The notes beneath the pieces were generated by a model. That model saw nothing but the letters and a program-made list of their open reading frames with translations, searched no databases and was not told the origin of the DNA. Shown piece by piece: positions 10,753 to 28,322 of a stretch of DNA of 64,000 nucleotides. The translations under genes were made by a program, and so were the position numbers. The stretch spans positions 1 through 64,000 of the IMG/VR virus record IMGVR_UViG_3300027797_000025; one strand, 5' to 3'. Numbering within the stretch: position 1 is the stretch's first letter; every line of letters begins with the position of its first letter. The stretch comes from a virus.

Positions 10753-13422
10753 ATGGCAACAAGAATGCAACAGCGTAGGGGCACTGCGGCGCAGTGGATC
10801 TCTACTAACAGTGGCAACGGTCCTATCCTAAACGCGGGCGAAATCGGATTTGAAAGCGATACAAATAAGTTTAAAATCGGTGACGGAATAAATCACTGGA
10901 TAGCCCTTGATTACTTTTTAGATGCTAATTCAACAGCAAATCCATCATTTGGTTCAAGTATCACATTTGAAGGCGCAACAGATAATACTTTTGAAACTAC
11001 GGTTTCGGTAACTGATCCTACAGCTGATCGTACAATCACACTTCCAGATGCAACTGGCACAGTAGCACTTACTTCAGATGTTACAACACACGCAGACCTT
11101 ACAGTAGCTCATGGCGCAACTGGTGCGGTAGTTGGAACAACTAATACACAAACCCTTACTAACAAGACTCTTACATCACCAGTAATCAATACACCTACTG
11201 GAATTACAAAGACAGACGTTGGTCTATCAAGTGTTGATAATACAACCGATGCTAATAAGCCAGTATCCACAGCAACACAAACAGCTCTTGATTTAAAAGC
11301 ACCCCTAGCCTCACCGACCTTCACAGGTACCGTATCCCTGGACACTGGTGTCAACCTTGTATTTGAAGGCGCAACAGCAGATGCTCACGAAACAACTTTA
11401 ACAGTTACTGACCCCACCGCTGATCGGACAATTACATTCCCAAATGCCACAGGAACAGTAGTTCTTGCTGACGGTGGCGGAAATGTAACGGTATCAGGAG
11501 ACTTAACTGTATCGGGAGCAACAACTATTATTAATAGTACAGTGCTTGAAGTTCAGAATGAAGTTAAATTTGAAGGCTCCACAGCAAATGATTTTGAAAC
11601 TAGCCTTAAAGTTGTAGACCCTACAGCAGATAGAGTTATTACATTTCCAGATGCTACTGGAACAGTTGCCATACTTGATACTACTCAAACATTGACTAAT
11701 AAAACAATTAACTTAACTTCAAATACATTAACTGGTACAAAATCTAACTTTAATGCGGCGATGTCAGACGCAGACTTTGCAACACTTGATGGCACAGAGA
11801 CACTAACAAATAAAACAATTAACTTAACTTCAAATACAGTAACCGCTACGCTTGCTCAATTAAATACAGCAGTGTCAGATGCTGATGTTGCTTCACTTGC
11901 TGGATCAGAAACGCTTACCAATAAAACTTTAACTTCTCCAAATGTTAACGAAGCAGTTGCTCTTTTAGCAACCTCTACAGAGTTAAACGTTCTTGATGGG
12001 ATTACCTCATCCACAGCCGAACTAAACATTCTTGATGGCGTAACATCTTCAACCGCAGAACTAAACATTCTTGATGGCGTAACAGCAACAACCGCACAAA
12101 TAAATGTCCTTACAAGTTTAACCTCATCTGCAACAGAATTAAACATTCTTGATGGGGTCACAGCAACTACAGCAGAGATAAATAAACTTGCTGGAGTTAC
12201 CGCAACTTCAGCTGAGATTAATACTTTAGCTGGACTTACGTCTACCGCTGCAGAATTAAACATTCTTGATGGCGCTACTCTTAGCGTAACAGAACTTAAC
12301 TATGTTGATGGTGTCACTTCAGCTATTCAAACACAGTTAAACAATAAGCAAGCAGTTGTTGCTAATGTGTCAGATACTGAAATTGGATACCTAGATGGCG
12401 TTACCTCAGCTATTCAAACCCAGCTAAACAATAAACAAGCAGTAGTTGCTAACGTGTCAGATGTTGAAATTGAATACCTTAACGGTGTTACTTCAGCTAT
12501 TCAAACACAGATAGATACTAAAGCACCACTAGCCTCTCCAACATTTACAGGTACTGTAACCCTGCCTTCGGGCGCTGTAACAAGCACAATGATTCTTGAT
12601 GGAACCATTCTTAACGCAGACATTAATGCAACAGCAGCAATTGACTGGACAAAGCTTGGAATATCTTCAACAGTTTCTTCAACTGAAATTGGGTATGTAG
12701 ATGGCGTAACTTCAGCTATTCAAACTCAGTTAGATGCAAAGTCACCTCTTGCATCACCTACTTTTACAGGAACAGTAAACGCAGCAGAACTTATTCTTTC
12801 TGGAGATCTAACGGTTAACGGAACTACCACAACAATTAATTCAACTACACTAGCTGTGGATGATAAAAACATAGTAATTGGCGATGTTGCTACTCCTTCA
12901 GATGTAACTGCAGATGGTGGCGGTATTACCCTTAAAGGCGCAACAGACAAAACCTTTAACTGGGTAGATGCAACAGACTCTTGGACCTCTTCAGAGCACA
13001 TCAACCTTGCTTCAGGAAAAGACCTAAAGGTAAATGGAACTGCAGTTATTAGCTCAACTGCTGGTGGATTTATATTTACTGATGGCACACAGACAAAAGA
13101 AGGAACTCCTTCTCGTACACCAATTATTCAAAAGACAGATTCTTACACACTATCAGCATTAACTGAAAGAGATTCACTAATTGAAGTTGCAAAAGGATCT
13201 GCAGCAACAATTACAATTCCACTAAACTCAGCAGTAGCCTTCCCAGTTGGAACCTCAATTGATATTCTTCAAACCTCAACAGGTCAAGTAACAATTGCAG
13301 GAGATGCTGGAGTAACCGTAAATTCAACACCAGGATTAAAACTTAGAACACAGTGGTCAACTGCAACTCTTTTCAAAAGAGCAGAAAACACCTGGGTTGT
13401 TTACGGCGATCTGACAGCGTAA
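10753..13422 (+). CDS. Large repeat fibre protein
   Basis: This 889-residue protein starts behind GGGAGGACATC. Residues 1-50 (MQQRRGTAAQW...GEIGFESDTNKFKIGDG) are the N-terminal domain of the major-tropism-determinant type that many phage receptor-binding fibres use for attachment. The rest is a beta shaft with repeated TADRTITLPDATG, TNKTLTSP, SPTFTGTV and ELNILDGVT motifs, including eight exact-length 13-residue units at residues about 410-513. The C-terminus (last 70 residues) looks globular. It is probably a receptor-recognition fibre; paralogy to the 8792 gene is clear. Confidence 0.85.
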   Translation: MATRMQQRRGTAAQWISTNSGNGPILNAGEIGFESDTNKFKIGDGINHWIALDYFLDANSTANPSFGSSITFEGATDNTFETTVSVTDPTADRTITLPDATGTVALTSDVTTHADLTVAHGATGAVVGTTNTQTLTNKTLTSPVINTPTGITKTDVGLSSVDNTTDANKPVSTATQTALDLKAPLASPTFTGTVSLDTGVNLVFEGATADAHETTLTVTDPTADRTITFPNATGTVVLADGGGNVTVSGDLTVSGATTIINSTVLEVQNEVKFEGSTANDFETSLKVVDPTADRVITFPDATGTVAILDTTQTLTNKTINLTSNTLTGTKSNFNAAMSDADFATLDGTETLTNKTINLTSNTVTATLAQLNTAVSDADVASLAGSETLTNKTLTSPNVNEAVALLATSTELNVLDGITSSTAELNILDGVTSSTAELNILDGVTATTAQINVLTSLTSSATELNILDGVTATTAEINKLAGVTATSAEINTLAGLTSTAAELNILDGATLSVTELNYVDGVTSAIQTQLNNKQAVVANVSDTEIGYLDGVTSAIQTQLNNKQAVVANVSDVEIEYLNGVTSAIQTQIDTKAPLASPTFTGTVTLPSGAVTSTMILDGTILNADINATAAIDWTKLGISSTVSSTEIGYVDGVTSAIQTQLDAKSPLASPTFTGTVNAAELILSGDLTVNGTTTTINSTTLAVDDKNIVIGDVATPSDVTADGGGITLKGATDKTFNWVDATDSWTSSEHINLASGKDLKVNGTAVISSTAGGFIFTDGTQTKEGTPSRTPIIQKTDSYTLSALTERDSLIEVAKGSAATITIPLNSAVAFPVGTSIDILQTSTGQVTIAGDAGVTVNSTPGLKLRTQWSTATLFKRAENTWVVYGDLTA
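11980..12291 (+). repeat. Eight 39-bp in-frame tandem units in fibre gene
   Basis: Eight units of exactly 39 bp encode 13-residue copies of the form ELNILDGVTSSTA, with variants such as EINKLAGVTATSA. A ninth partial unit starts at 12292. Unit length is strictly kept while bases drift, which indicates selection on a repeating structural turn of the fibre shaft and a hot spot for length change. Confidence 0.85.
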
Positions 13423-13435
13423 TAGGGAAATATAA

Positions 13436-14440
13436 ATGGCTAAGAAGACGGGTAAACGTTCCGCGGCATCAAACGACTTTTTAGAGCCATTAGCACCAAC
13501 AATCGGGACTGCTACAAATGTTGGAACAGGCAGAGCCTTTAACAATGGCGCTGCCACAGTTACATTTTCTTTGCCTGCACTATCGCCTGCTGCTACATCA
13601 TTTACTGTAACCTCATCACCTGGCGGATATACAGGAACTGGGTCATCTTCTCCAGTTACAGTAGCTGGACTTCAGTCTGCTACAGCCTACACATTTACCG
13701 CAACAGCTACTAATGCTGCGGGAACCTCTCAAGCATCTGCGGCATCAAACTCTATTACCGCAACAACAGTCCCTGCAACTATGTCTGCCCCAACCCCAAC
13801 TGCTGGAGTTAATCAAAACTCAATTGCTTTCTCAGCCCCAGCAACTGGTGGCAGCGCCATTACAGGATTTACCGTAACAGGCAGCGATGCTACTACTGGA
13901 ACAGGCTCTACTTCTCCAATTACTATTGCTGACACTGGCGGAACATCTCAGACTTATACCGTTACCGCAACAAACGCTAACGGAACAAGCATTGCCTCTG
14001 CCGCATCTGGATCTATTACTACGTTATCCCCCTTCTTCCCGCCTTTCTTCCCACCTTTCTTCCCGTTCTTCCCGCCGTTTTTCCCGCCTTTCTTTCCATT
14101 CTTCCCGTTCTTTCCGCCATTCTTCCCGCCATTCTTCCCGTTCTTCCCACCTTTCTTCCCACCTTTCTTCCCGTTCTTCCCGTTCTTTCCACCATTCTTC
14201 CCACCGTTCTTTCCGTTCTTCCCATTCTTCCCACCGTTCTTCCCACCGTTTTTCCCATTCTTCCCACCATTTTTCCCACCATTCTTCCCACCTTCATTCC
14301 CTTCTTGTGCAAGCATGTATAGCGCTTGTGGCGGTGGCAACGGAGCTTGTTGTTCAGGAGCAGGCGCTTGCACATATGGATGTTGTTTCGGGTCATGCGG
14401 AGTCGTATGCAATGGTGAAAATTTAGTAAATATTTGTTAA
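13436..14440 (+). CDS. Fibronectin-III / Phe-Pro repeat / ten-cysteine fibre protein
   Basis: This 334-residue protein starts at ATG 13436 behind AGGGAAATATAA. Residues about 20-110 and 115-195 are two fibronectin-III-like domains (SPGGYTGTGSSSP, YTFTATATNAAGTS). Residues 199-286 are a tract of 24 FF doublets separated by P or PP, made of seven 11-residue FFPPFFPPFFP units and three FFP spacers. The last 44 residues contain ten cysteines (291, 298, 305, 306, 312, 316, 317, 321, 325, 334), with C-X6-C-X6-CC-X5-C-X3-C at the start. It is presumably a displayed virion protein of the fibre cluster. It lies directly before the oxygenase island, whose enzymes could act on its prolines. No known protein of this full layout comes to mind. 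Confidence 0.85.
   Translation: MAKKTGKRSAASNDFLEPLAPTIGTATNVGTGRAFNNGAATVTFSLPALSPAATSFTVTSSPGGYTGTGSSSPVTVAGLQSATAYTFTATATNAAGTSQASAASNSITATTVPATMSAPTPTAGVNQNSIAFSAPATGGSAITGFTVTGSDATTGTGSTSPITIADTGGTSQTYTVTATNANGTSIASAASGSITTLSPFFPPFFPPFFPFFPPFFPPFFPFFPFFPPFFPPFFPFFPPFFPPFFPFFPFFPPFFPPFFPFFPFFPPFFPPFFPFFPPFFPPFFPPSFPSCASMYSACGGGNGACCSGAGACTYGCCFGSCGVVCNGENLVNIC
14030..14302 (+). repeat. Phe-Pro coding repeat with pyrimidine-rich + strand
   Basis: This is the DNA of the Phe-Pro tract. The + strand is nearly all C and T (TTC/TTT and CCN codons), with scattered G or A mostly at codon third positions. The repeat is imperfect at DNA level but regular at protein level. Such a strand-asymmetric tract can form unusual DNA structures. 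The minus-strand frames of Lys-Asn-Gly repeats across it are shadows. Confidence 0.85.
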
Positions 14441-14454
14441 TTACAATTCATGCG

Positions 14455-14463
14455 TGATATGCT
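14455..14463 (+). promoter_or_regulatory. Extended -10 promoter at start of enzyme island
   Basis: TGATATGCT matches TGNTANNNT. It lies in the only gap between the fibre cluster and the enzyme island and would give a leader of about 20 bases with GAAAGG before ATG 14491. Confidence 0.4.
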
Positions 14464-14490
14464 TTACCCACAAAAAGAAAGGTTTTTGAT

Positions 14491-14871
14491 ATGGCTTTAA
14501 ATGCTAATGGAGGGCTTATTTCAGAAGATAAAAATCCTGATTTAGTTAGGTTTGCTAATGATCAAACTAACACAGCTCTTATTTTAGACGGTGTAGTTGA
14601 AAAAATAATGCGTTTAGGGCCACCTATGCCTCAAATTATATTTGGAAATTATCAATTTAGAGATGTAACTGAGGCAAAAAGAGTAGAAAAAGAAAGCTCT
14701 ATGTTCTTTTTTGAAATTGAATCGGAAGATGGATTAGTATTAGTGGTGGCCTCAGACGAAAGTATGTGGGCAATTATGGCATCCCACCCTTTAGCGGTAG
14801 AGATCCCAGCTGAGTTAGATGTACAACTTGGCTGGACGTACACTGTTGAAACTGGTTTTGTAAGTAATTAA
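14491..14871 (+). CDS. Hypothetical protein at head of enzyme island
   Basis: This 126-residue protein starts at ATG 14491. Residues 30-126 alternate beta strands and short helices (FGNYQFRDVTEAKRVEKE, FFEIESEDGLVLVVASDE), suggesting a compact fold. No family is recognised. A promoter-like element precedes it and a zinc-type Cys protein follows, so it may belong functionally to the oxygenase island. Confidence 0.7.
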   Translation: MALNANGGLISEDKNPDLVRFANDQTNTALILDGVVEKIMRLGPPMPQIIFGNYQFRDVTEAKRVEKESSMFFFEIESEDGLVLVVASDESMWAIMASHPLAVEIPAELDVQLGWTYTVETGFVSN

Positions 14872-14897
14872 ATAACTTTTATAACTTGGAGTATAAG

Positions 14898-15164
14898 ATG
14901 TCAGAAAAATCAGCGTGGGAAATATATAAAGAAAAAAATAAAGAAGCGCTTAACGATATGGAAGCATATAGAAAAGCAAAGCCTTGGGATTTACTAAACC
15001 CAAAAACAGAATATGTAGAAGGATCGGTTGCAAAAGATAGATTTGATATCTGCAAGGCCTGCCCTGAACTAATTAAATTAACCTCTCAATGTAAAAAATG
15101 CGGATGTTTTATGAAAATAAAAACTACTATGGCGACTGCTACTTGCCCAATTGATAAGTGGTAG
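14898..15164 (+). CDS. Small Cys-rich zinc-type protein (DUF6171-like)
   Basis: This 88-residue protein uses ATG 14898, eight bases after GGAG. Its C-terminal part has ICKACPELIKLTSQCKKCGC, later followed by CPIDKW, which I associate with small phage proteins of the DUF6171 type. The cysteines probably bind zinc. Related proteins often sit beside 2-oxoglutarate dioxygenase genes in aquatic phages, as here, but the function is unknown. Confidence 0.75.
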   Translation: MSEKSAWEIYKEKNKEALNDMEAYRKAKPWDLLNPKTEYVEGSVAKDRFDICKACPELIKLTSQCKKCGCFMKIKTTMATATCPIDKW

Positions 15165-15172
15165 GGGGCCCT

Positions 15173-15886
15173 ATGGATATTTATAATGAAAATGAAAACC
15201 CTTGGTTTACAAAGGATAGGTCTGAGACGGCTTCAGATAGAGTTGCAAGGCTAATGCCTCAAAGCGATATCACTATTAGCAACCCAGGACTGGGGCTAAA
15301 TGTTTATCATAATACTTTTTCTTTAGATGACTCTAAAAGGTACATCAATACGCTTGAGTCTAACCTGTCTACTGGTAGCAAGTATAAATGGTCAGAGGCT
15401 CAAGTAACAAACTCTGACGTACCGATCAAAAAGGCAAGAGACTGTGTAGATTTTAGATATAAACAAGAGAACCTAGGGCCAAGGGACGAGTCTAATGCGG
15501 ACTTAATTGACCTTCATGAAGAGATATATCAAAAATTAAAAATGTGTATGGACGACTATGCCCATTACTGGGGCATAAATGTTACGTATTATGAAGCGTT
15601 TAACTTTGTAAAGTATGAAGGTGAGGGCACTCACTTTAATATTCATGCCGATCACGGCCCTGCTTATAACTGTACCGTTTCTGCGGTAATCTATATTAAT
15701 GATGATTACGAAGGCGGAGAGATTAAGTTTCCAAGATTAGATAACTTTGTGCATACTCCAAAGGTTGGGGATATAGCTATTTTCCCCTCAAACTATATCT
15801 ACGAACATGCCTCTTTACCAATGAAAACAGGAACAAAATATTGTGTTGTTGTTATGACAGATATAAACCTTTTGAGCCACAACTAA
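15173..15886 (+). CDS. 2OG-Fe(II) dioxygenase 1 (prolyl hydroxylase type)
   Basis: This 237-residue protein starts at ATG 15173 behind GTAGGGGGC. Members use 2-oxoglutarate and O2 to hydroxylate protein or small-molecule targets. The iron site is visible as H158-x-D160 (NIHADHG) with distal H212 (YEHAS), and a Lys in GTKY follows where the 2OG carboxylate binds. The core segment INDDYEGGEIKF is shared nearly word for word with the next oxygenase. It is the first of seven such genes in 8 kb. Confidence 0.88.
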   Translation: MDIYNENENPWFTKDRSETASDRVARLMPQSDITISNPGLGLNVYHNTFSLDDSKRYINTLESNLSTGSKYKWSEAQVTNSDVPIKKARDCVDFRYKQENLGPRDESNADLIDLHEEIYQKLKMCMDDYAHYWGINVTYYEAFNFVKYEGEGTHFNIHADHGPAYNCTVSAVIYINDDYEGGEIKFPRLDNFVHTPKVGDIAIFPSNYIYEHASLPMKTGTKYCVVVMTDINLLSHN

Positions 15887-15899
15887 AATAGGAGAACAT

Positions 15900-16571
15900 A
15901 TGAATGCAGAAACTACAATATCAGCACCCTGGAGCAGCTACGAAGAAATTGGTCCAGGCATCTTTGTTTACCACGACGTTCTGCCAACAGAGTTAGACAT
16001 CATTAATAGGTTAGAACAAGTTTTGGGTAGTGATAGCCCCCACTATAATTGGCAACCAGCTTACGTAGGCTATATGCAAAGAATGCCAGAATATAGAGAC
16101 TGCGTTGACTTTAAATTTAAAAAAACAGATATTCAAAACGATAAATCTGAAGCATCCGCTCAACTACAGGGGATTTGGCAAGATTGCTATGATAGGCAAA
16201 AGTTAGCAGTAGAGGATTATTGCAAGCGTTTTAACATTAATAACTTAAGGTACTGGGAAGCCTTTAACTACATCAAGTACGAGCCTGGTCAACACTTTAT
16301 GGAGCACCATGACCACGGGTTCTCGTATAACTGTACTCTATCTTTGGTTGCCTATATTAATGATGATTATGAAGGCGGAGAGCTATTCTTTAGGCTTCAA
16401 GGGCTAACCTATATCCCAAAGGCTGGGGATGTTGTGCTATTCCCGTCAAACTTTATGTACCCGCACCAAGCAAAGGTTGTTCACTCTGGAACAAAATACT
16501 CATTAGTAACAATGCTTGATTACAGCGAGAAGTACCATACCGCAGAAATGTATCAAGAAACTGGATCATAA
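15900..16571 (+). CDS. 2OG-Fe(II) dioxygenase 2
   Basis: This 223-residue protein starts behind AGGAGAACAT. The iron site is H136-x-D138 (EHHDHG) with distal H189 (YPHQA) and GTKY beyond. It is a close paralogue of the gene at 15173: both share CVDFKFK/CVDFRYK, YEAFN/WEAFN, DHG..YNCT and YINDDYEGGE. The pair probably arose by tandem duplication. The substrate is unknown. It is coupled to the next gene by an ATAATG overlap. Confidence 0.88.
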   Translation: MNAETTISAPWSSYEEIGPGIFVYHDVLPTELDIINRLEQVLGSDSPHYNWQPAYVGYMQRMPEYRDCVDFKFKKTDIQNDKSEASAQLQGIWQDCYDRQKLAVEDYCKRFNINNLRYWEAFNYIKYEPGQHFMEHHDHGFSYNCTLSLVAYINDDYEGGELFFRLQGLTYIPKAGDVVLFPSNFMYPHQAKVVHSGTKYSLVTMLDYSEKYHTAEMYQETGS

Positions 16572-17293
16572 TGTCAATTATCACAGCTTATAAAAGAACA
16601 CCAACGGCATTAAACATAGAGCCGATGTCTATTAAACGTGACTGGATGGATGAAACCCCTCAAGGCCATGCTTATAGGTGTCACCCAGTAACCTCTGCTA
16701 ATGTTATTGGTTGGGCTATCTCTTTGCCAATAGATTTGAAGTTTATTTGGAATGGCGTAAATGATACAAGTAGCGATAACGTAACAATTTTAGAAGGTAC
16801 AGAGTACGTTTACACGGGTAGAGGGCAGGCTACAATTAGTTTTAACACTGGGTTTATTCTAAGAACTGCTCAGGATGTAAGCGTACTTACAATTACCCCT
16901 CAAAACTATTTTAATGAAAACTTTGAAGTAGTATCTTCTTTAATATCCACTTCATTTTTAAATACTGATTTTCCATTAGCAATTAAATGTAGAATACCTA
17001 ACCAAGAAATCATTATTAAAACAGGAACCCCAATAGCAACTATAATTCCTATATCTTTGACTTCTTTAAAGGATGAGTCAGTAGAAATTGTTAATTTTGT
17101 CAATACTCAAGAATATAATGACACTGTAAGTGCGTACGGAGCAGCAGCTCAAGAAGTAAATAAACTTGGCGAATGGACGGATTGGTATAGAAATGCGGTA
17201 AATGAAAAGGGGGAGTCAGTAGGAGCCCACGAAGTAAAAAACCTAAAACTTAGTGTTATTGACAATACAAGGTTTAATAATGAAAATAATTAA
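16571..17293 (+). CDS. Unknown protein A of a paralogous pair (DUF6065-like)
   Basis: This 240-residue protein starts at ATG 16571 overlapping the previous stop. It resembles a family of phage proteins I know as DUF6065: a start with CHPVTSANVIGWAISLP, a later FNTGFILRT segment and IKTGTPIATIIPI. The same ordered landmarks occur in the next gene (GYSLVTP, VPNGYSVLYVSP, LPAGTPYAQLIPF), so the two are paralogues. Mostly beta strands are predicted. No catalytic motif can be seen; always being beside oxygenases would suggest a partner or substrate role. Confidence 0.7.
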   Translation: MSIITAYKRTPTALNIEPMSIKRDWMDETPQGHAYRCHPVTSANVIGWAISLPIDLKFIWNGVNDTSSDNVTILEGTEYVYTGRGQATISFNTGFILRTAQDVSVLTITPQNYFNENFEVVSSLISTSFLNTDFPLAIKCRIPNQEIIIKTGTPIATIIPISLTSLKDESVEIVNFVNTQEYNDTVSAYGAAAQEVNKLGEWTDWYRNAVNEKGESVGAHEVKNLKLSVIDNTRFNNENN

Positions 17294-18044
17294 TTTTATA
17301 AGTAATAGGCCTTGGCTTACTAAAGAGAGCGCATCAAAACCAGTTCCAATTTCAAAATTAATGCCACAATGGTACAAAGATGCAGATAGATTTGCTAAGA
17401 TGCCAACTGGGGAATACTACAAAGCGCCAAAAGAAGTTTGCCCGTTTCCCAAAGAAGGTACAACCAACGATTATGGGAAAATCCCTACATGGAAGGCTTG
17501 CCCCGCAATTCTTGATATTTTAACAACAGGCTATAGCTTGGTTACGCCTTGCGACATAGAGTTCTTCTTAGATGACGCTGGGCAGATTGATGTTAAAATT
17601 GAAGATCCAATGTATAAAGGGTTTGCAACTAGAAGGCCCCCTATGCCACAATTTCGGCATCCAGAGGGGTACTATAACTATCACTTTGCTTGGATGCCCG
17701 ATTGGGCAGTAAAAGTCCCAAATGGGTATAGTGTTTTATACGTGTCGCCTCTTAATCGTTATGATCTTCCAATTATGACAGTTTCTGGGATTATTGATAA
17801 CGACGAGGTTAACCTTCCTGGGTCATTTCCATTTTTTGTACAAGAGGGTTGGGCTGGGGTTTTACCAGCAGGAACCCCTTATGCTCAGCTGATCCCCTTT
17901 TTAAGGGAAGATTGGAAAGCTGAAACCACTATCCCTTCAACACAAACAATGATGAATAGCAATATAGAAAATAGTAAGAAATACCGTGTACCAGATGGCG
18001 GGGTATATCAAAAAGAAGTCTGGACCAAGAGGGCCTACGAATAG
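17280..18044 (+). CDS. Unknown protein B of a paralogous pair
   Basis: This 254-residue protein starts at ATG 17280, overlapping the preceding gene by 14 nt; the longer TTG 17253 lacks support. It is a paralogue of the 16571 product, with the shared beta-rich core between residues about 80 and 215. An N-terminal WYKDADRF segment and Pro-rich middle (RRPPMPQF) are specific to it. Similar proteins occur in large aquatic phages without known function. Confidence 0.7.
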   Translation: MKIINFISNRPWLTKESASKPVPISKLMPQWYKDADRFAKMPTGEYYKAPKEVCPFPKEGTTNDYGKIPTWKACPAILDILTTGYSLVTPCDIEFFLDDAGQIDVKIEDPMYKGFATRRPPMPQFRHPEGYYNYHFAWMPDWAVKVPNGYSVLYVSPLNRYDLPIMTVSGIIDNDEVNLPGSFPFFVQEGWAGVLPAGTPYAQLIPFLREDWKAETTIPSTQTMMNSNIENSKKYRVPDGGVYQKEVWTKRAYE

Positions 18045-18051
18045 GAAATGG

Positions 18052-18063
18052 TATAGTTAACAT
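18052..18063 (+). promoter_or_regulatory. Leaderless promoter, TATAGT-N6-ATG
   Basis: TATAGT (18052-18057) lies exactly six bases before ATG 18064, so the transcript would begin at or next to the start codon. No useful Shine-Dalgarno site sits at normal spacing. Confidence 0.55.
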
Positions 18064-18744
18064 ATGAAACAGAACAATGACTCATACACCGTAGTTAAAC
18101 GAGCGCCGTCTATGACCCCATCTGGCTGGTTTGGAGATAGCAAAGACATGATTGTCGAGCTAGAAAACTTCATGACCCAAGAAGAGATAGAGTTTTTAGA
18201 GAAAGCTGCCAAATCTTTAACCATTTGGGATGTAACGCAAAGCCATACAAATGAGAATGGAACAGTTACCTATGACTCAGATTATTGGAAAGATAGGGTT
18301 GCCACTCAACCAACCTTAGATAAAAATGATCCAAAGATATCTCCAATAATTGCAGGGCTATTTCAACGACTAAGGCCAATTATTGAAGAATTTTATAAAG
18401 TAGAAGTTCACCCAACTGGCACAACTATTGTTAAATGGCTTCCTGGGCAGTTTCAAAACCCTCATGCAGATAAAGAACTTCACGAGGGGCCAGACGCGGG
18501 AACGCCTAATGATTTTCCAAACTATGACCTTTCAAGTTTGTTCTATTTAAACGATGACTATGAAGGTGGGGAACTATACTTCCCACTACAGGGCGTGCAG
18601 TTTAAGCCTAAAAAAGGCGCTGCTTACTTTTTCCCAGGGGATAAAAACTATATTCACGGGGTTACTGAGATCAAAAGTGGTTTAAGATTTACATGCCCAT
18701 TTTTTTGGGAAATAACCCGACATACAGGGGACAGACAACCGTAA
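18064..18744 (+). CDS. 2OG-Fe(II) dioxygenase 3
   Basis: This 226-residue protein has the iron triad H134-x-D136 (NPHADKE) and H198 (YIHGV), with R208 (LRFTCPFFW) for 2-oxoglutarate. The core LNDDYEGGELYFP is that of prolyl-4-hydroxylase-like enzymes. It uses Arg rather than the Lys of oxygenases 1 and 2, so it belongs to a different sub-branch. It begins a new transcription unit with a leaderless-type promoter. Confidence 0.88.
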   Translation: MKQNNDSYTVVKRAPSMTPSGWFGDSKDMIVELENFMTQEEIEFLEKAAKSLTIWDVTQSHTNENGTVTYDSDYWKDRVATQPTLDKNDPKISPIIAGLFQRLRPIIEEFYKVEVHPTGTTIVKWLPGQFQNPHADKELHEGPDAGTPNDFPNYDLSSLFYLNDDYEGGELYFPLQGVQFKPKKGAAYFFPGDKNYIHGVTEIKSGLRFTCPFFWEITRHTGDRQP

Positions 18745-18751
18745 TGACGGA

Positions 18752-18763
18752 TATAATACAATT
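18752..18763 (+). promoter_or_regulatory. Leaderless promoter, TATAAT-N6-ATG
   Basis: A perfect TATAAT (18752-18757) stands six bases before ATG 18764. There is no Shine-Dalgarno sequence. Confidence 0.6.
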
Positions 18764-19537
18764 ATGAGATCTATTTATGATATCCCGCTTAACTCGGCCG
18801 ACGGGGCTCCTGGTTTCTTAGACCAGTTTAAAGGTAAGGTCACACTACTAACAAATACAACAGTTGGTTGTGGCAATGCTAATCAAATGGAAGTTCTCCA
18901 ATGGCTTCAAGATAAGTACGGTGGAGATGATTTCCAAGTAGTCGCTATCCCTACTAATGACTACTGTGGCCCTGGCGTTACTAAGGGCAAGTGGTCACAA
19001 GGCATTACTTGTGGCTTAGACTCACAAGAGTATGGCAAAGACACTTATGGGACTACTTTTGCGTTCTCAGAGCTGGTCGCATCAAATCCAAATAAAAGTG
19101 CTAATGAGATGAGTGATCATAAGGGGGACGATTCTGTAAACGGATTAGGTCAACCAAGAAAAGAAACTCACGAACTATATAAAGAGATATCAGATCAAAT
19201 GCTGGCGTATGCTGCAAAACAAAAAGAACTTGGCATTCCAGATAGAGACGGGTACCTATCCCCTTGGCTAAATCAACCTGTTGCTAATGGTGCAATGCAG
19301 GGCGGAAACTTTGAAAAGTATCTTATTGATAAAGATGGCTTTGTAGCAAATTGGTTCCAATGTACCGTTTTAAATTATGATATTGAAAAGACCCTTAAAG
19401 AGGATTTAATAGCTAAAGGAACCCCTGCTGCTATGGGAGAAGGCAGAACTCCAGAAGTGTTTGAAGAAGAATATAACCTTGTTCAACAGGAAATAGAAAA
19501 GTTAATTGCTGGAGATAAATCCCTTATAAATAACTAA
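18764..19537 (+). CDS. Glutathione-peroxidase-like thioredoxin-fold protein
   Basis: This 257-residue protein has the family start FKGKVTLLTNTTVGCGNANQ, where C36 takes the peroxidatic cysteine/selenocysteine place, followed by LQWLQDKYGGDDFQVVAIPTND. A C-terminal FEKYLIDKDGFVANWF matches the final strand pair of glutathione peroxidases. It is longer than usual (about 160-180 residues) because of a middle insertion around 90-170 and a charged C-terminal tail. A role in reducing peroxide made by uncoupled oxygenases next door, or in forming disulfides, is possible but inferred. Confidence 0.75.
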   Translation: MRSIYDIPLNSADGAPGFLDQFKGKVTLLTNTTVGCGNANQMEVLQWLQDKYGGDDFQVVAIPTNDYCGPGVTKGKWSQGITCGLDSQEYGKDTYGTTFAFSELVASNPNKSANEMSDHKGDDSVNGLGQPRKETHELYKEISDQMLAYAAKQKELGIPDRDGYLSPWLNQPVANGAMQGGNFEKYLIDKDGFVANWFQCTVLNYDIEKTLKEDLIAKGTPAAMGEGRTPEVFEEEYNLVQQEIEKLIAGDKSLINN

Positions 19538-19553
19538 ATGGAGCACAAGTACA

Positions 19554-20309
19554 ATGAACTTGGAAAACAAAACAAGAATAACAAAAGATATAGTTGTTTA
19601 TAAGAACTTTATAAGCAGAGAAGACTGCAAAAAGATGATTCAAGCCTTAGACGCTCAAGCAGACAACGGGGCAATTTCTTGGATGCCTATTTCATTTTAT
19701 GAGTCATACTCTTCAGTATTGCCACAAGACAACGATAAAGAAGTAGTTGATGCTGGGCTATCTCCAACTATATTCTCAGACATTGAAAAAATAATGTACG
19801 AAGCAATTGCTTCAGTTCATGACTTAGACCCAAAGGTAATATCAAAAATTGGGTATCACACACAAAAATGGGAGCCAGGAGCATACGCAAGAATTCACTC
19901 TGACAATACAGATGAGCATGGGAAGTCAGGCGCGTTCACAAGAAGCCGATACGCGGGTTTTCTATATCTTAATGACGATTTTAAAGGCGGGCTACTTAAA
20001 TTCCCAAGTCAGAACATAGAGATTAAACCAGAAGTTGGACTGCTTGCCGTATTTGATGGCGGGTTTAACAACATGCACGAAGTGTCCCTAATAGAGAGTG
20101 GGGTACGGTACACCATTGGATCTTTCTGGGATGATAGAGAAGAATCAGACTATCCGCAAGAGCTAAGAGATGCTTGGGCCGCAGAAATGAAAGAAACTAG
20201 AGCCCAACAAGAAGTTGAACGAGCAGAGTGGCAAGATTTGCTTAAGCAGGGCTGGAAGCTAGATGCAGATGGTAATAAATACAAAGTAAAGGAGATTACA
20301 AATGATTGA
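19554..20309 (+). CDS. 2OG-Fe(II) dioxygenase 4
   Basis: This 251-residue protein starts at ATG 19554 (GGAGCACAAGTACA upstream). The iron site is H115-x-D117 (RIHSDNT) with H175 (NMHEV) and R185 (VRYTIGSFW). The prolyl hydroxylase fold is followed by a C-terminal extension of about 50 residues, rich in Glu, Arg and Gln and probably helical, ending in LDADGNKYKV. This tail is absent from the other six and may bind a partner. It overlaps the next gene by 8 nt. Confidence 0.88.
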   Translation: MNLENKTRITKDIVVYKNFISREDCKKMIQALDAQADNGAISWMPISFYESYSSVLPQDNDKEVVDAGLSPTIFSDIEKIMYEAIASVHDLDPKVISKIGYHTQKWEPGAYARIHSDNTDEHGKSGAFTRSRYAGFLYLNDDFKGGLLKFPSQNIEIKPEVGLLAVFDGGFNNMHEVSLIESGVRYTIGSFWDDREESDYPQELRDAWAAEMKETRAQQEVERAEWQDLLKQGWKLDADGNKYKVKEITND

Positions 20310-20961
20310 ATCTTTTAAACAACAGTTAATAGATAGCGGGTACGTAGTTACAGAGATTACCCCAGAACTATTTTCTGTTGAAAACTTTTTATCACAAGAT
20401 CAAATAGATACTTTTTGGGATATTATACATAGCACACCTCAAAAAGATTGGGAAGTAGAGTACCACGCAAACTTAAAACACTTTTGCATGGAAAAGTTTG
20501 GCAGAGATGACGTAGATAATTTGGTTGCTGAAGGTAAGTTTGAAATTACTCAAAATTGGAAAGATAAAAACTTTAATATATTACATCATGAGATCCAAAG
20601 GCCTTTATATGATGGCCTAAACTCAATGGTAATAAAAGCTGACCCAAAATTGGTCTTAAGCGGCTTTGCAACAATTCAAAGAATGCAACCAGGAGTAGAG
20701 CTAAAATCACATACTGACCAAAAAACAGATCCGTCTATAAAATACGCCACAATTGCATATATTAATGATAACTACGCAGACGGCGAGTTATTTTTTCCAA
20801 ACCTTGATATCCAGCTAAAGCCTAAACCAGGAACTATGTTATTTTTTCCAGGTAATGAGGAGTATGAGCACGGGGTCAAGCCCGTAGGCGAAGGGTCAAT
20901 AAGATATGTTCTTGTTGGTTTTATTAAAGAAAAAGATCACTATCAAAATAATAAATACTAA
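20302..20961 (+). CDS. 2OG-Fe(II) dioxygenase 5
   Basis: This 219-residue protein starts at ATG 20302 with GGAGATTACAA upstream. The iron site is H137-x-D139 (KSHTDQK) and H190 (YEHGVK), with an Arg in SIRYVLVGF. The core reads YINDNYADGELFFPN. The N-terminal 60 residues differ from the other paralogues, so substrate choice probably differs. It sits in the tight run 19554-23391. Confidence 0.87.
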   Translation: MIESFKQQLIDSGYVVTEITPELFSVENFLSQDQIDTFWDIIHSTPQKDWEVEYHANLKHFCMEKFGRDDVDNLVAEGKFEITQNWKDKNFNILHHEIQRPLYDGLNSMVIKADPKLVLSGFATIQRMQPGVELKSHTDQKTDPSIKYATIAYINDNYADGELFFPNLDIQLKPKPGTMLFFPGNEEYEHGVKPVGEGSIRYVLVGFIKEKDHYQNNKY

Positions 20962-20971
20962 GGGGCACTAA

Positions 20972-21598
20972 ATGGATAAAGAAATACTTGAAGAAAAAGT
21001 TTACTATTACACAAACGTAATTGAAAACCCAAAGAAACTTGTTGATGCAATTGAACAAGACAATGAAAATCCTTGGGGCGAATGGATGGCGTGTAGTGGA
21101 GAGGCGTATATTTATGGTACAGATAAAAGTATCTTTGCAGACCCGTCAGATATACAAAAAACTTATATCTACTCTACGCTACAAAAAGCTTTTGATGATG
21201 TAGCAAGAGATTACGCAGCAGCTCACGGCATCACAGAGGATCCTAAACTATTTCCAATGTACCCAATTAAAAAGTATAAAGCTGGAACATACATGGGCGC
21301 TCACTTTGACCAACAAGAGGGAGATGACCGTCTTAAAATATCTTTTGTTATGTACTTAAATGATGACTACGAAGGCGGAGAACTATCTTTTAGCATAGCG
21401 TCTCCAGATGGCATACTGCAAAATGCTAGCCCACACCCAGACTTTGAAATTGCAACACAAGACGGAAGCTATACTTTTGCTATCAAGCCAAAGGCTGGAA
21501 GCATTGTTGTTTTCCCACCATCTCCGCCATATCACCACACTGCACACTTAGTGAAGAGTGGGGAAAAGATTATGGTGCCGCAACACTGGATTCATTAG
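20972..21598 (+). CDS. 2OG-Fe(II) dioxygenase 6
   Basis: This 208-residue protein starts behind AAGGGGCAC. The iron site is H111-x-D113 (GAHFDQQ); the distal ligand is one of H188, H189 or H192 in YHHTAHLV. The core LNDDYEGGELSF is followed by an insertion of about 30 residues (around 140-170) before the last strands. The segment near residue 197 (SGEKIMVPQHW) puts Lys in the 2-oxoglutarate position, so it groups with oxygenases 1 and 2. Confidence 0.86.
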   Translation: MDKEILEEKVYYYTNVIENPKKLVDAIEQDNENPWGEWMACSGEAYIYGTDKSIFADPSDIQKTYIYSTLQKAFDDVARDYAAAHGITEDPKLFPMYPIKKYKAGTYMGAHFDQQEGDDRLKISFVMYLNDDYEGGELSFSIASPDGILQNASPHPDFEIATQDGSYTFAIKPKAGSIVVFPPSPPYHHTAHLVKSGEKIMVPQHWIH

Positions 21599-21599
21599 C

Positions 21600-22268
21600 A
21601 TGAAAACAGCTATTGTAACTGGAGCAAGCAAGGGTGTTGGTTTAGCAACGGTTAAACGCTTATCTGAAAACGGGTACAAGGTCATTGCTGTTTCAAGAGA
21701 CCTCTCTAAAGTATCTGAACTTGTATCTGACAACGTTGAGGTATACCGCCTAGATATAACAGACTCTAAAGCAATAGAACTATTCTTTGAAAAATACAAA
21801 AATATAACCCTAGATCTTTTAGTTAACAACGCGGGTGGCGGTTCTGGCCCAACCCACATTATTAATGAAACCCCAGAAAACTTTAGAAAAGCCTATGATA
21901 TAAACGTAACGGGCCCTATGTACCTATCTCAACTATTTGTACCCTGTATGAGAAGATCACAATCTCCAACAATTGTCTTCATTACCTCTTTTGGCGGTAA
22001 AGTGCCCTATCGCGGTGGGGGAAATTACACAAACGCCAAGAGGGGTGAGCGTGGTCTAATTGACACAATGAGGCTTGAGTTTCCTCAATTTGGCATTAAA
22101 ATTACAGATATCTGCCCAGCTACTATCGACACCCAAGAACAAAAACGAGACCACGCTTTAACTGCAGAAGATTTAGCAGAAGCCATTTACTGGGTAGGTT
22201 CGTTACCAAGCCATGTTAATATAAACGAAATTGAAATTTGCCACATCAACAGTAGCAAGTATAACTAA
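21600..22268 (+). CDS. Short-chain dehydrogenase/reductase
   Basis: This 222-residue protein starts at ATG 21600, one base after the previous stop. It has the NAD(P)-binding TGASKGVG (residues 7-14), NNAG (76-79), catalytic S130 (ITSFGG), Y143 and K147 (YTNAK). It is a classical, slightly short SDR that interconverts an alcohol and a carbonyl group. In this island it might act on an oxygenase product or on a sugar; the substrate cannot be told. SDR genes are rare in phages. Confidence 0.88.
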   Translation: MKTAIVTGASKGVGLATVKRLSENGYKVIAVSRDLSKVSELVSDNVEVYRLDITDSKAIELFFEKYKNITLDLLVNNAGGGSGPTHIINETPENFRKAYDINVTGPMYLSQLFVPCMRRSQSPTIVFITSFGGKVPYRGGGNYTNAKRGERGLIDTMRLEFPQFGIKITDICPATIDTQEQKRDHALTAEDLAEAIYWVGSLPSHVNINEIEICHINSSKYN

Positions 22269-22270
22269 GC

Positions 22271-22864
22271 ATGATTAATTACAAAAATAGTAAAAGCTCT
22301 ACGTTTCAAGAGTCATTTGTTATCTCTATGACGCAAGAGAAAAAAAATGGGTTTTATGTAGAGCTAGGCTCGGCTGACCCATACACGGATAGTAATACGT
22401 TTTTGTTAGAATCTGAGTTTGGCTGGAAAGGTCTTGCTCTTGAGATTGACAAAGAAGTGTCTGAGAAATACAACTTATCTGACCGCAATAACAAATGTAT
22501 TAATAAAGACGCACTAAGTTTTGACTACCTTAACTACTTTAAAGAAAATAACTTTCCAAAAACCATTGACTTTTTGCAAATTGATATAGATGGGCATGAC
22601 GATGGAAACTGTCTTTTAGCCCTCATAGCGCTACCTATGTTGCAATATAGATTTTCAACAATAATTATTGAGCATGATTTAGGTCAAAATTATAAAAGGT
22701 ACTCTATGAGGGATGCTCAAAGAGAGCTTTTAAGCAGTTTAGGGTACAAACTTATTGGACAGACGTTAAGTGAAGACTGGTGGGTTGACCCAAAGTCTGT
22801 AAACCAAGAGGCCTACAGGTATGACACATTTAACGGGATACCGTACATTGAAGGGACCAAATGA
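22271..22864 (+). CDS. FkbM-like methyltransferase
   Basis: This 197-residue protein has the FkbM-type start GFYVELGSADPYTDSNTFLLE, then WKGLALEID and FLQIDIDGHD, which together form the SAM-binding core. FkbM enzymes O-methylate sugars or hydroxyl groups of small molecules. Beside seven hydroxylases, methylation of a newly made hydroxyl or of a virion glycan is an attractive guess. It overlaps the next gene by 4 nt (ATGA type). Confidence 0.78.
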   Translation: MINYKNSKSSTFQESFVISMTQEKKNGFYVELGSADPYTDSNTFLLESEFGWKGLALEIDKEVSEKYNLSDRNNKCINKDALSFDYLNYFKENNFPKTIDFLQIDIDGHDDGNCLLALIALPMLQYRFSTIIIEHDLGQNYKRYSMRDAQRELLSSLGYKLIGQTLSEDWWVDPKSVNQEAYRYDTFNGIPYIEGTK

Positions 22865-23391
22865 AAGTAATAAAACACGCAGAAGGTGTGTACGAAATTG
22901 AGGGGTTTTTAGATGAAGAGTTGAGAAGTGCCCTTATATCTGAGGCTCAACTAAATATTGATTGGGATACTACTCATGTAGGAAATACAGTTAAAGCTAT
23001 GAGTGATGAGTCACGTGCTAAAATAAACAATCTGTATAAAAATATTGAAACATTTTTTACTAATATAGAGTCAATAGACTATTCTCGTGATTTACGAAGG
23101 CTAAAAGATTCAGAGTTTATGTGGCCGCACACAGACGACGGAAACCCCGATGACCCAAGAACAATAGTTTTTGGTATTGCTATTTATTTAAATGACACCT
23201 TTACTGGGGGAGAGCTAATATATCCAGACCTTGGACTAAGCGTTACCCCAAGGCCAGGAAGCATGGTTATCCATAGTGCTCACCTTAAGCATCAAGTGTT
23301 TCCAGTTTTAGGGGGAGAACGGTACTCAATAACTACCTTTGTTTTTGGCAATAAATCTACTAAATTTGCCCAAAGCGCTGTTGTTGCTTAA
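22861..23391 (+). CDS. 2OG-Fe(II) dioxygenase 7 (minimal)
   Basis: This is the shortest of the seven at 176 residues, close to a bare prolyl hydroxylase core. The iron site is H90-x-D92 (WPHTDDG) and H144 (LKHQVF), with R154 (ERYSIT). The core is YLNDTFTGGELIYPD. It closes the enzyme operon; a promoter-like element follows at 23404. Confidence 0.87.
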   Translation: MKVIKHAEGVYEIEGFLDEELRSALISEAQLNIDWDTTHVGNTVKAMSDESRAKINNLYKNIETFFTNIESIDYSRDLRRLKDSEFMWPHTDDGNPDDPRTIVFGIAIYLNDTFTGGELIYPDLGLSVTPRPGSMVIHSAHLKHQVFPVLGGERYSITTFVFGNKSTKFAQSAVVA

Positions 23392-26750: not shown

Positions 26751-28322
26751 ATGGCATTTTCACGCCCTGGGGTGTACGTCCAAGAGGCACTAACCCCTAT
26801 TCAACCTATAGATGGGCCAAACTCGGATTCAGTAGCAGCTTTTGTTGGTGCTAACGATCGAGGCCCTGTTACACCAACACTAGTTACATCCTGGACTCAG
26901 TATGTAAATCTTTTTGGTTCTTGGAACTCAACGTTCTCAAATGATCTTCCAATTGCAGTTTATTTGTTCTTTACAAACGGCGGACGCCAAGCGTACATTC
27001 TACGCGTAGTTACTACTGGCAACGCTACTGCAGGAAACAATGCGGCTGTTGCTACTAGAACGCTTCTAGATAGAGCTGGAACAGCTTTAAACACCCTTGT
27101 ACTAAGTGCAAAAAACCCTGGTACCTGGGGTAACTACATTAGCTATACTATTACAAACGCTCCAACTACAGGGTATTTTAATTTATCTGTCTATTACAAC
27201 GTGCCAGCAGCCCCAACAGATGCGTATATTGTTGAAAAATTTACAGATTTAAGCATGGTTACTACTGACACAAGATACGCTGTAAACGTAATCAACACCT
27301 CTTCAACATATATTACAGCAGCGCAACCTGCAACACCTTCAGCAACCGCTGCTCCTAATAACAACCCAGCTGTTGCATCAACCCCAGTTGCATTAGTAGG
27401 TGCTACAGACGGCCTTACCCCAACAACAACACTCCTTACAACTGCTCTTTCTTTGCTTGACCCAATTAATACATCTTTAATACTAAACCTTCCAAACAAA
27501 ACTGACGATACCACTATCAACGCTGCGCTTTCATACGCGTCTGCTCGTGGAGATGTGTTTGTTGTAATTGACCCAGTTGCTGGGGCTGTAGTTGGCCCAG
27601 TTGGGACTGCTGGAACCCAGCTGTACGTAACAGCAACATATGGAACAAGCACAACTGGATCTTACGGTGCTGTTTACTATCCACAACTTGTAATTAGCGA
27701 CCCAACAGTTGGTATTGGCGCCGCTACAGGTGTTACCCGTAATGCCGCTCCTGGTGGAGCAATTGCTGGTTTGTACGCATCTACTGATGCCGCACGCGGA
27801 GTGTTTAAAGCACCTGCAGGCCTTCAAAGCAGAATTGCTGGAGCAGTATCAGTTACTTCTCTATCAAATACTGACTTAGATTCACTAAACAGTGCGGCCG
27901 TTCCAGTAAACGCTATTAAATTCGTTCCTGGCTCAGGAATTGTAGTTATGGGAGCTCGTACGCTTAAGTCAGGTTACATAGATCGTTATGTTCCTGTTCG
28001 TCGTACCCTTATCTACTTAAATAAGTCCCTTAAAGACTTAAGCGAGTTTGCAGTGTTTGAGCCAAACGACCCATCTTTATGGCGTCGAATTAACTCTACG
28101 TTGTCCTCTTTCTTGACCAACTTTTGGGCTCAAGGAGGCCTTAATGGAGCAACTCCAGCACAGGCTTTCTATGTAAAAGTAGATAGCACTAATAATTCAC
28201 AGGCATCAATTGATAACGGAGATCTTACAATTGAAGTCGGTGTTTCCCTTCAGCGCCCAGCTGAATTCGTAATCATCAAAATAGGTCAGTTCAACGGTAG
28301 AACTACCGTTACTACGGCGTAA
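26751..28322 (+). CDS. Contractile tail sheath protein
   Basis: This 523-residue protein starts behind AAGGAGATAATCTA. The N-terminus FSRPGVYVQE and the C-terminal region (GARTLKSGYIDRYVPVRRTLIYLNKSL in register, then RINSTLSSFLTNFWAQGGL) are typical sheath landmarks. The subunits contract on infection and drive the tube into the cell. Its presence defines the phage as a myovirus. A Thr/Ala/Pro-rich middle (about 190-330) is probably a surface domain. Confidence 0.92.
   Translation: MAFSRPGVYVQEALTPIQPIDGPNSDSVAAFVGANDRGPVTPTLVTSWTQYVNLFGSWNSTFSNDLPIAVYLFFTNGGRQAYILRVVTTGNATAGNNAAVATRTLLDRAGTALNTLVLSAKNPGTWGNYISYTITNAPTTGYFNLSVYYNVPAAPTDAYIVEKFTDLSMVTTDTRYAVNVINTSSTYITAAQPATPSATAAPNNNPAVASTPVALVGATDGLTPTTTLLTTALSLLDPINTSLILNLPNKTDDTTINAALSYASARGDVFVVIDPVAGAVVGPVGTAGTQLYVTATYGTSTTGSYGAVYYPQLVISDPTVGIGAATGVTRNAAPGGAIAGLYASTDAARGVFKAPAGLQSRIAGAVSVTSLSNTDLDSLNSAAVPVNAIKFVPGSGIVVMGARTLKSGYIDRYVPVRRTLIYLNKSLKDLSEFAVFEPNDPSLWRRINSTLSSFLTNFWAQGGLNGATPAQAFYVKVDSTNNSQASIDNGDLTIEVGVSLQRPAEFVIIKIGQFNGRTTVTTA

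Follow-up and report, generated by a model that had tools for sequence, protein, structure and literature searches.

The window, which is the whole stretch of 64,000 nucleotides analysed here, forms part of a 68,229-base IMG/VR virus record and comes from a phage of the contractile-tail type, with a sheath gene at 26751-28322. Judging from the sheath protein, the nearest isolates are the Streptomyces myophages BRock and LuckySocke (37-38% identity over 94%), and because of this likeness we would guess at an actinobacterial host. The gene under study is flanked upstream by a fibre gene and downstream by seven genes for predicted 2OG-Fe(II) oxygenases, and its product comprises a base, a tract of Phe and Pro, and a small tip (Table 1). 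Two small genes lie in the gap (14491-15164) that separates the tract gene from the first oxygenase gene; one encodes 126 aa of no family, the other 92 aa with a DUF6171 domain.

Table 1 Features at the Phe-Pro tract locus, in window coordinates
Feature	Position	Strand	Basis
Upstream fibre gene, 889 aa, Mtd_N N-terminus	10753..13422	+	Mtd_N E 3.1e-11; tail-fibre PHROGs
Base-stalk-tip protein gene	13436..14440	+	ORF, ATG start, 334 aa; homologues in hundreds of IMG/VR contigs
Base: short N-terminal segment and two FN3-like domains, residues 1-198	13436..14029	+	Pfam fn3; AlphaFold2
Phe-Pro stalk tract, 24 FF doublets, residues 199-286	14030..14293	+	Direct translation; family statistics
Cys-rich C-terminal tip, ~48 aa, residues 287-334, swapped in relatives	14294..14437	+	Sequence; tip comparison
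2OG-Fe(II) oxygenase 1, prolyl-hydroxylase-like	15158..15886	+	PF13640 E 2.3e-10
2OG-Fe(II) oxygenase 2	15900..16571	+	PF13640 E 4.5e-12
2OG-Fe(II) oxygenase 3	18064..18744	+	PF13640 E 1e-8
2OG-Fe(II) oxygenase 4	19554..20309	+	PF13640 E 3.4e-7
2OG-Fe(II) oxygenase 5	20302..20961	+	PF13640 E 2.1e-11
2OG-Fe(II) oxygenase 6	20972..21598	+	PF13640 E 3.5e-12
2OG-Fe(II) oxygenase 7	22861..23391	+	PF13640 E 1.7e-8
Putative cassette: tract gene and oxygenase cluster	13436..23391	+	Synteny with L382, L397, L401

Within the base, residues 39-105 match Pfam fn3 (PF00041; E 4.6e-7, 30.4 bits against a curated cut-off of 25), and AlphaFold2 returned an all-beta model for residues 1-198 (pLDDT about 88-96) that appears to hold a second FN3 domain. 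The best structural matches of the whole protein are UniProt 'Fibronectin type III' proteins of uncultured Caudovirales (e.g. A0A6J5MFV5; at most 60% identity over the aligned part), which probably belong to the same family; they are annotated by their FN3 domain only, and we found no description of their tract, tips or linked oxygenases. The window tip matched no Pfam family, the S74 chaperone domain included.

Translation bears out what an earlier note, made from the letters of the window, had read at this position, namely that residues 199-286 are exclusively Phe and Pro and that the 24 FF doublets are arranged in seven FFPPFFPPFFP(P) blocks and three FFP spacers. Its count of 48 Phe also stands, but the 39 Pro that it gave are in fact 40, and its tract end at 14302 overshoots the actual end at 14293 by about 9 bases, into a following S-F-P. 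The note had further held that such a tract cannot be a normal domain, and this is supported. Within the tract, AlphaFold2 assigns no secondary structure, and its confidence drops from about 73 to 43. The stiff polyproline-like rod that it proposed is still our best guess, although this low-confidence model does not depict one. Collagen-like phage fibres (Gly-X-Y) are likewise repetitive, Pro-containing fibre stalks and would work in a similar way if hydroxylated; the window tract differs from them in its lack of glycine, its period of 3 or 4 and its paired aromatics, and we rejected an identity with such fibres for a tract of F and P only. Keyword searches of the open-access literature gave no description of a Phe-Pro tract or of such a stalk paired with 2OG oxygenases, in line with the earlier note's remark that no phage fibre of this layout was known, and for the motif they returned only Amanita peptides and one unrelated paper.

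The metagenome search for FFPP-repeat proteins that the note had suggested found at least 338 relatives in a first scan of IMG/VR, and hundreds of contigs from uncultured lake phages encode the tract in frame. In a catalogue of 148 distinct tract-plus-tip sequences, complete tracts hold 5-50 doublets (median 17). The second position of the repeat unit is F in 2571/2573 two-residue segments, the first is F or Y in 98% and sometimes H or W, and 2638/2649 spacers consist of one or two prolines. A collection of bacterial and archaeal genomes contained the pattern in only 17 stretches, most of them short ORFs and four (L089, L093, L100 and L101) phage-like architectures in MAGs, and on these grounds we rejected a cellular origin. 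In phage isolates, tblastn with FN3-, PASTA- and L137-type proteins found no tract, a result from which low-complexity filtering may have hidden matches. A culturable phage may offer a looser analogue, SSCSM1_245 of Synechococcus phage S-SCSM1 (L495:13880-15145), a 'short tail fiber' that sits between two groups of 2OG oxygenases and contains an Arg/Pro/Phe-rich insert of RQPRNFR-type repeats. A cysteine-bearing variant of the tract occurs in L555, L556 and L563 (e.g. FFPSFCPFFPNFCPSFCP in L555), and in L555 an oxygenase gene begins 12 bp downstream of the tract gene.

Phe is encoded in the window tract by 41 TTC and 7 TTT codons and Pro by 18 CCA, 15 CCG, 6 CCT and 1 CCC, so that third positions vary between units. 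Family-wide, where a codon differs from the one most common at its unit position, the change is synonymous in 84% of cases (2027/2420), compared with 22% expected from random base changes. L018 shares 12 consecutive units with the window at the same spacing, with 26 codons identical, 18 synonymously different and none non-synonymously different, and L012 keeps 13 units with 20 synonymous and 1 non-synonymous codon differences. Across up to 13 units, the order of single and double prolines relative to the window is conserved while ~40% of codons are synonymously changed; summed over homologues, the differences from the window come to 945 synonymous and 6 non-synonymous, counts that are not independent of one another. 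At the level of codons, these comparisons show purifying selection on the tract, including its strict xFP/xFPP spacing. The earlier note had named an artefact, or a broken frame in related phages, as what would speak against its reading; the tract survives this test, in that complete tracts in relatives are all open throughout and their changes mostly synonymous. It is hardly credible, then, that the repeat arose without function, through DNA slippage or faulty assembly, with the real gene antisense or in another frame: it is a tandem array by TRF, varies in copy number and has a stop codon in no frame, but the extensive synonymous change over fixed amino acids and spacer order contradicts this reading, as do its recurrence in hundreds of contigs and the frame that it shares with the flanking FN3 and tip. 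Artefact, slippage and an antisense gene were thus ruled out by the codon analysis, and the antisense ORFs over the tract were set aside as by-products of a composition that leaves every frame without stops.

The earlier note had also placed the protein in a fibre cluster, and the neighbourhood agrees: the gene upstream carries Mtd_N and tail-fibre PHROG matches, and a homologue of it lies directly upstream of 132/148 tract genes. This genome context points to a host-facing, fibre-associated virion protein. An effector that is secreted or acts inside the cell, outside the virion, and releases a Cys-rich or Hint-like tip would draw on the Hint-like, possibly self-processing tips and Cys-rich mini-domains found among relatives, and both kinds of domain are also known from secreted proteins; the constancy of the fibre neighbour and the Peptidase_S74 fibre chaperone borne by one relative make this reading improbable. 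In L140, L153 and L172 tract-bearing genes are paired in tandem, and in L153 and L172 the oxygenase cluster comes next.

The architecture of these proteins is modular, with a base, the Phe-Pro tract and a swappable tip. The tract is carried by FN3 pairs, by PASTA bases and by multi-domain fibres that reach about 960 aa, and among FN3-type pairs with a base identity of at least 80%, 212/244 have a tip identity below 45%. Tips are Cys-rich mini-domains, Hint/intein-like, one clear Peptidase_S74, FN3-like extensions or absent. The Peptidase_S74 domain follows the tract immediately in L145 (E 8.5e-12), a likeness to S74-chaperone-tipped tail fibres that the window protein does not share, and weakly in L216; in these two and in L178 the tip is or resembles the start of this intramolecular chaperone. 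The tips of L058 and L132 match Hint/intein profiles at 1.6e-4 and 1.6e-5, under the curated cut-offs, and the window tip has no such match. No reverse transcriptase (PF00078) was found in 36 tract-bearing contigs, which may be incomplete, and a diversity-generating retroelement was rejected as the source of tip diversity.

Host-recognition proteins are usually built as base, stalk and hypervariable tip, and we consider it quite probable that the window protein is such a modular stalk with a swappable tip, whose function would be receptor binding. Alternatively, the Phe-Pro tract might itself bind, its aromatic surface sticking to lipids or glycans in the envelope of the host, with the tips as accessories. 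Many PASTA-based and other members do end in the tract, followed only by a C-terminal xFK such as GFK, and the nearly constant aromatic at the first unit position would suit a sticky surface. Tips are nevertheless often present and differ between near-identical proteins, as expected of the part that meets a receptor, and the free variation in tract length fits a spacer, so we regard binding by the tract as unlikely.

All seven oxygenases match PF13640. The closest PDB sequence to oxygenase 2 is the Bacillus anthracis prolyl 4-hydroxylase (E 1e-4). For oxygenase 1, whose start in orthologues is the ATG at 15176, a model of mediocre confidence (pLDDT 70) was compared with the PDB by Foldseek: nearly all of the best 50 matches were prolyl hydroxylases (E 1e-8 to 7e-7, TM 0.44-0.62), among them the algal P4H with (Ser-Pro)5 and the PBCV-1 viral enzyme, and the sole exception was PolD, with two chains. 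With the 2-His-1-Asp iron triad motif as criterion (PMC2767507), H157, D159, H211 and K221 (HxD, H, Lys at +10) proved invariant in 14 sequences. As modelled, the product of this gene has the predicted fold and the catalytic residues of a prolyl hydroxylase. Known prolyl 4-hydroxylases (B. anthracis P4H, algal P4H-1, PHD2, PBCV-1 vCPH) resemble the window genes in predicted fold, HxD...H triad and Lys at +10, with a sequence identity of only about 10-20%. Other genes are interspersed in the cluster: a DUF6065 protein and an overlapping unknown gene (16571-17293, 17253-18044), similar to genes that recur in related clusters; a glutathione-peroxidase-like protein (18764-19537; PF00255 E 1e-8); and, by eye, short-chain dehydrogenase-like and FkbM-methyltransferase-like genes (21558-22864).

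The earlier note missed how widespread the tract is as a module, that the tips on it are swappable and that oxygenases are linked to it, and this linkage is the most informative clue to the function of the tract. PF13640 is present in 35/36 tract-bearing contigs, nearly always in several copies (the L110 contig has none). Of 50 contigs of 20 kb or more drawn at random, only two contain it, and both of these lack the tract pattern. Among phages related by their sheath, both tract-positive contigs carry six oxygenases each; among the 18 tract-negative contigs, two have a single oxygenase and the other 16 are without any. When the fibre gene was held constant, all 15 tract-positive loci had oxygenases, as did 8 of the 30 tract-negative ones (Fisher p 2e-6; contigs are incomplete, and since those sampled are partly related, p-values here overstate independence). 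On follow-up, three of the eight tract-negative exceptions had short or Cys-containing tracts, one had a tract upstream of its oxygenases and two were contigs whose first bases already fall within the oxygenase cluster; L520 and L537 are the only exceptions left. Conversely, an F-P tract gene lies upstream of 47/47 oxygenase-1 orthologues with enough upstream DNA, which are close orthologues and not 47 independent events. The arrangement is directional, with 498 oxygenase ORFs downstream of tract genes on the same strand and 16 upstream on either strand, the first downstream one usually within about 1 kb of the tract gene and sometimes less than 60 bp away.

The window terminase was found in only 3/33 tract records searched and is absent from most contigs of more than 80 kb, so the linkage spans several phage lineages. 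In three sheath relatives (L382, L397 and L401) other genes occupy the interval from the fibre genes to gene 23769, and for this reason 13436-23391 looks like an exchangeable cassette.

If proline is what the oxygenases act on, the proline content of the tract offers a natural contrast. An oxygenase lies within 5 kb downstream of 43/48 Pro-rich tract genes (mean 3.1; 5/48 have none), as against 2/6 genes with a Phe-rich but Pro-poor tract on a related FN3 base (one each, mean 0.33), a difference with Fisher p 0.005 and Mann-Whitney p 0.001 on six Pro-poor cases only. The Pro-poor tracts, with 2-12% Pro, are of the kinds GAFGAFG, GFAPFGFTPFG and FFSVFG, and L078, with an FFAPPLFFGPP tract, has three oxygenases downstream. 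Proline is thus the likely target of the neighbouring oxygenases. Stalks of this sister type, with GAFGAFGAFG or GFAPFGFTPFG (Phe-Gly-Ala) or FFSVFG repeats, occur in L615, L634, L641, L655 and L689, and also in L520 and L602, on related FN3 bases; many have Hint-like tips, and the oxygenase cluster is mostly missing.

The prolyl-hydroxylase-like oxygenases might instead have another target, for example a host protein, glycans or nucleotides, the tip or a different fibre protein, with the tract gene merely co-inherited in the cassette. Seven divergent enzymes seem many for one substrate. Several 2OG oxygenases are carried by 14/16 T4-like cyanophages (PMC3037559) and 24 by cyanophage S-SCSM1 (PMC9602691); some of the cyanophage genes lie near replication genes, so a tract of this kind cannot be what all of them serve. 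Roles suggested in the literature are 2-oxoglutarate metabolism and DNA repair (PMC3037559), and the B. anthracis P4H is reported, in the title of PDB 5v7y, to modify elongation factor Tu. Against this, the cluster accompanies tract genes despite differing base domains and phage lineages and is mostly missing beside Pro-poor tracts on related bases, which hitch-hiking alone would not predict. Another target is the most serious of the alternatives, and we consider it the less probable account.

We know of no Phe-Pro tract in chloroviruses. Their prolyl 4-hydroxylase is likewise virus-encoded, active on Pro-containing peptides and of unknown role, but it belongs to an algal virus, in the virion proteins of which, according to a review, hydroxyproline was not found (PMC7019647). 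In a structural survey, no human protein was matched by phage proteins more often than the prolyl hydroxylase EGLN3 (PMC12774648).

Taken together, we lean towards a modular, host-facing stalk protein that has its prolines hydroxylated by the enzymes encoded next to it. Close to the fibre, an FN3 base would carry an extended Phe-Pro rod, probably polyproline-II-like, with a small exchangeable tip facing the host, and the 2OG-Fe(II) oxygenases encoded downstream on the same strand would act as prolyl hydroxylases on the stalk. The tract is very hydrophobic, and hydroxylation may stiffen it and raise its solubility; the several enzymes of a cluster could cover different prolines or related substrates. 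That at least one of them uses the tract prolines as substrate is, on balance, our expectation, and the genome context and composition from which we infer hydroxylation, stalk conformation and virion location are those set out above. More tentatively, stalk and dedicated prolyl hydroxylases could constitute a phage protein-hydroxylation system that moves jointly between lineages as a cassette.

Were this so, the abundant phage 2OG-Fe(II) oxygenases would have in the tract their first natural substrate to be identified, and a rod in which aromatic doublets alternate with hydroxyprolines would be a kind of protein fibre without earlier description. The tract is a concrete candidate substrate and the Pro-poor tracts are a natural negative control, which makes the question testable by co-expression. 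The protein would represent a new modular, adhesin-like type that joins a stalk of unusual chemistry to very diverse tips and that, among abundant lake phages, may determine the range of hosts.
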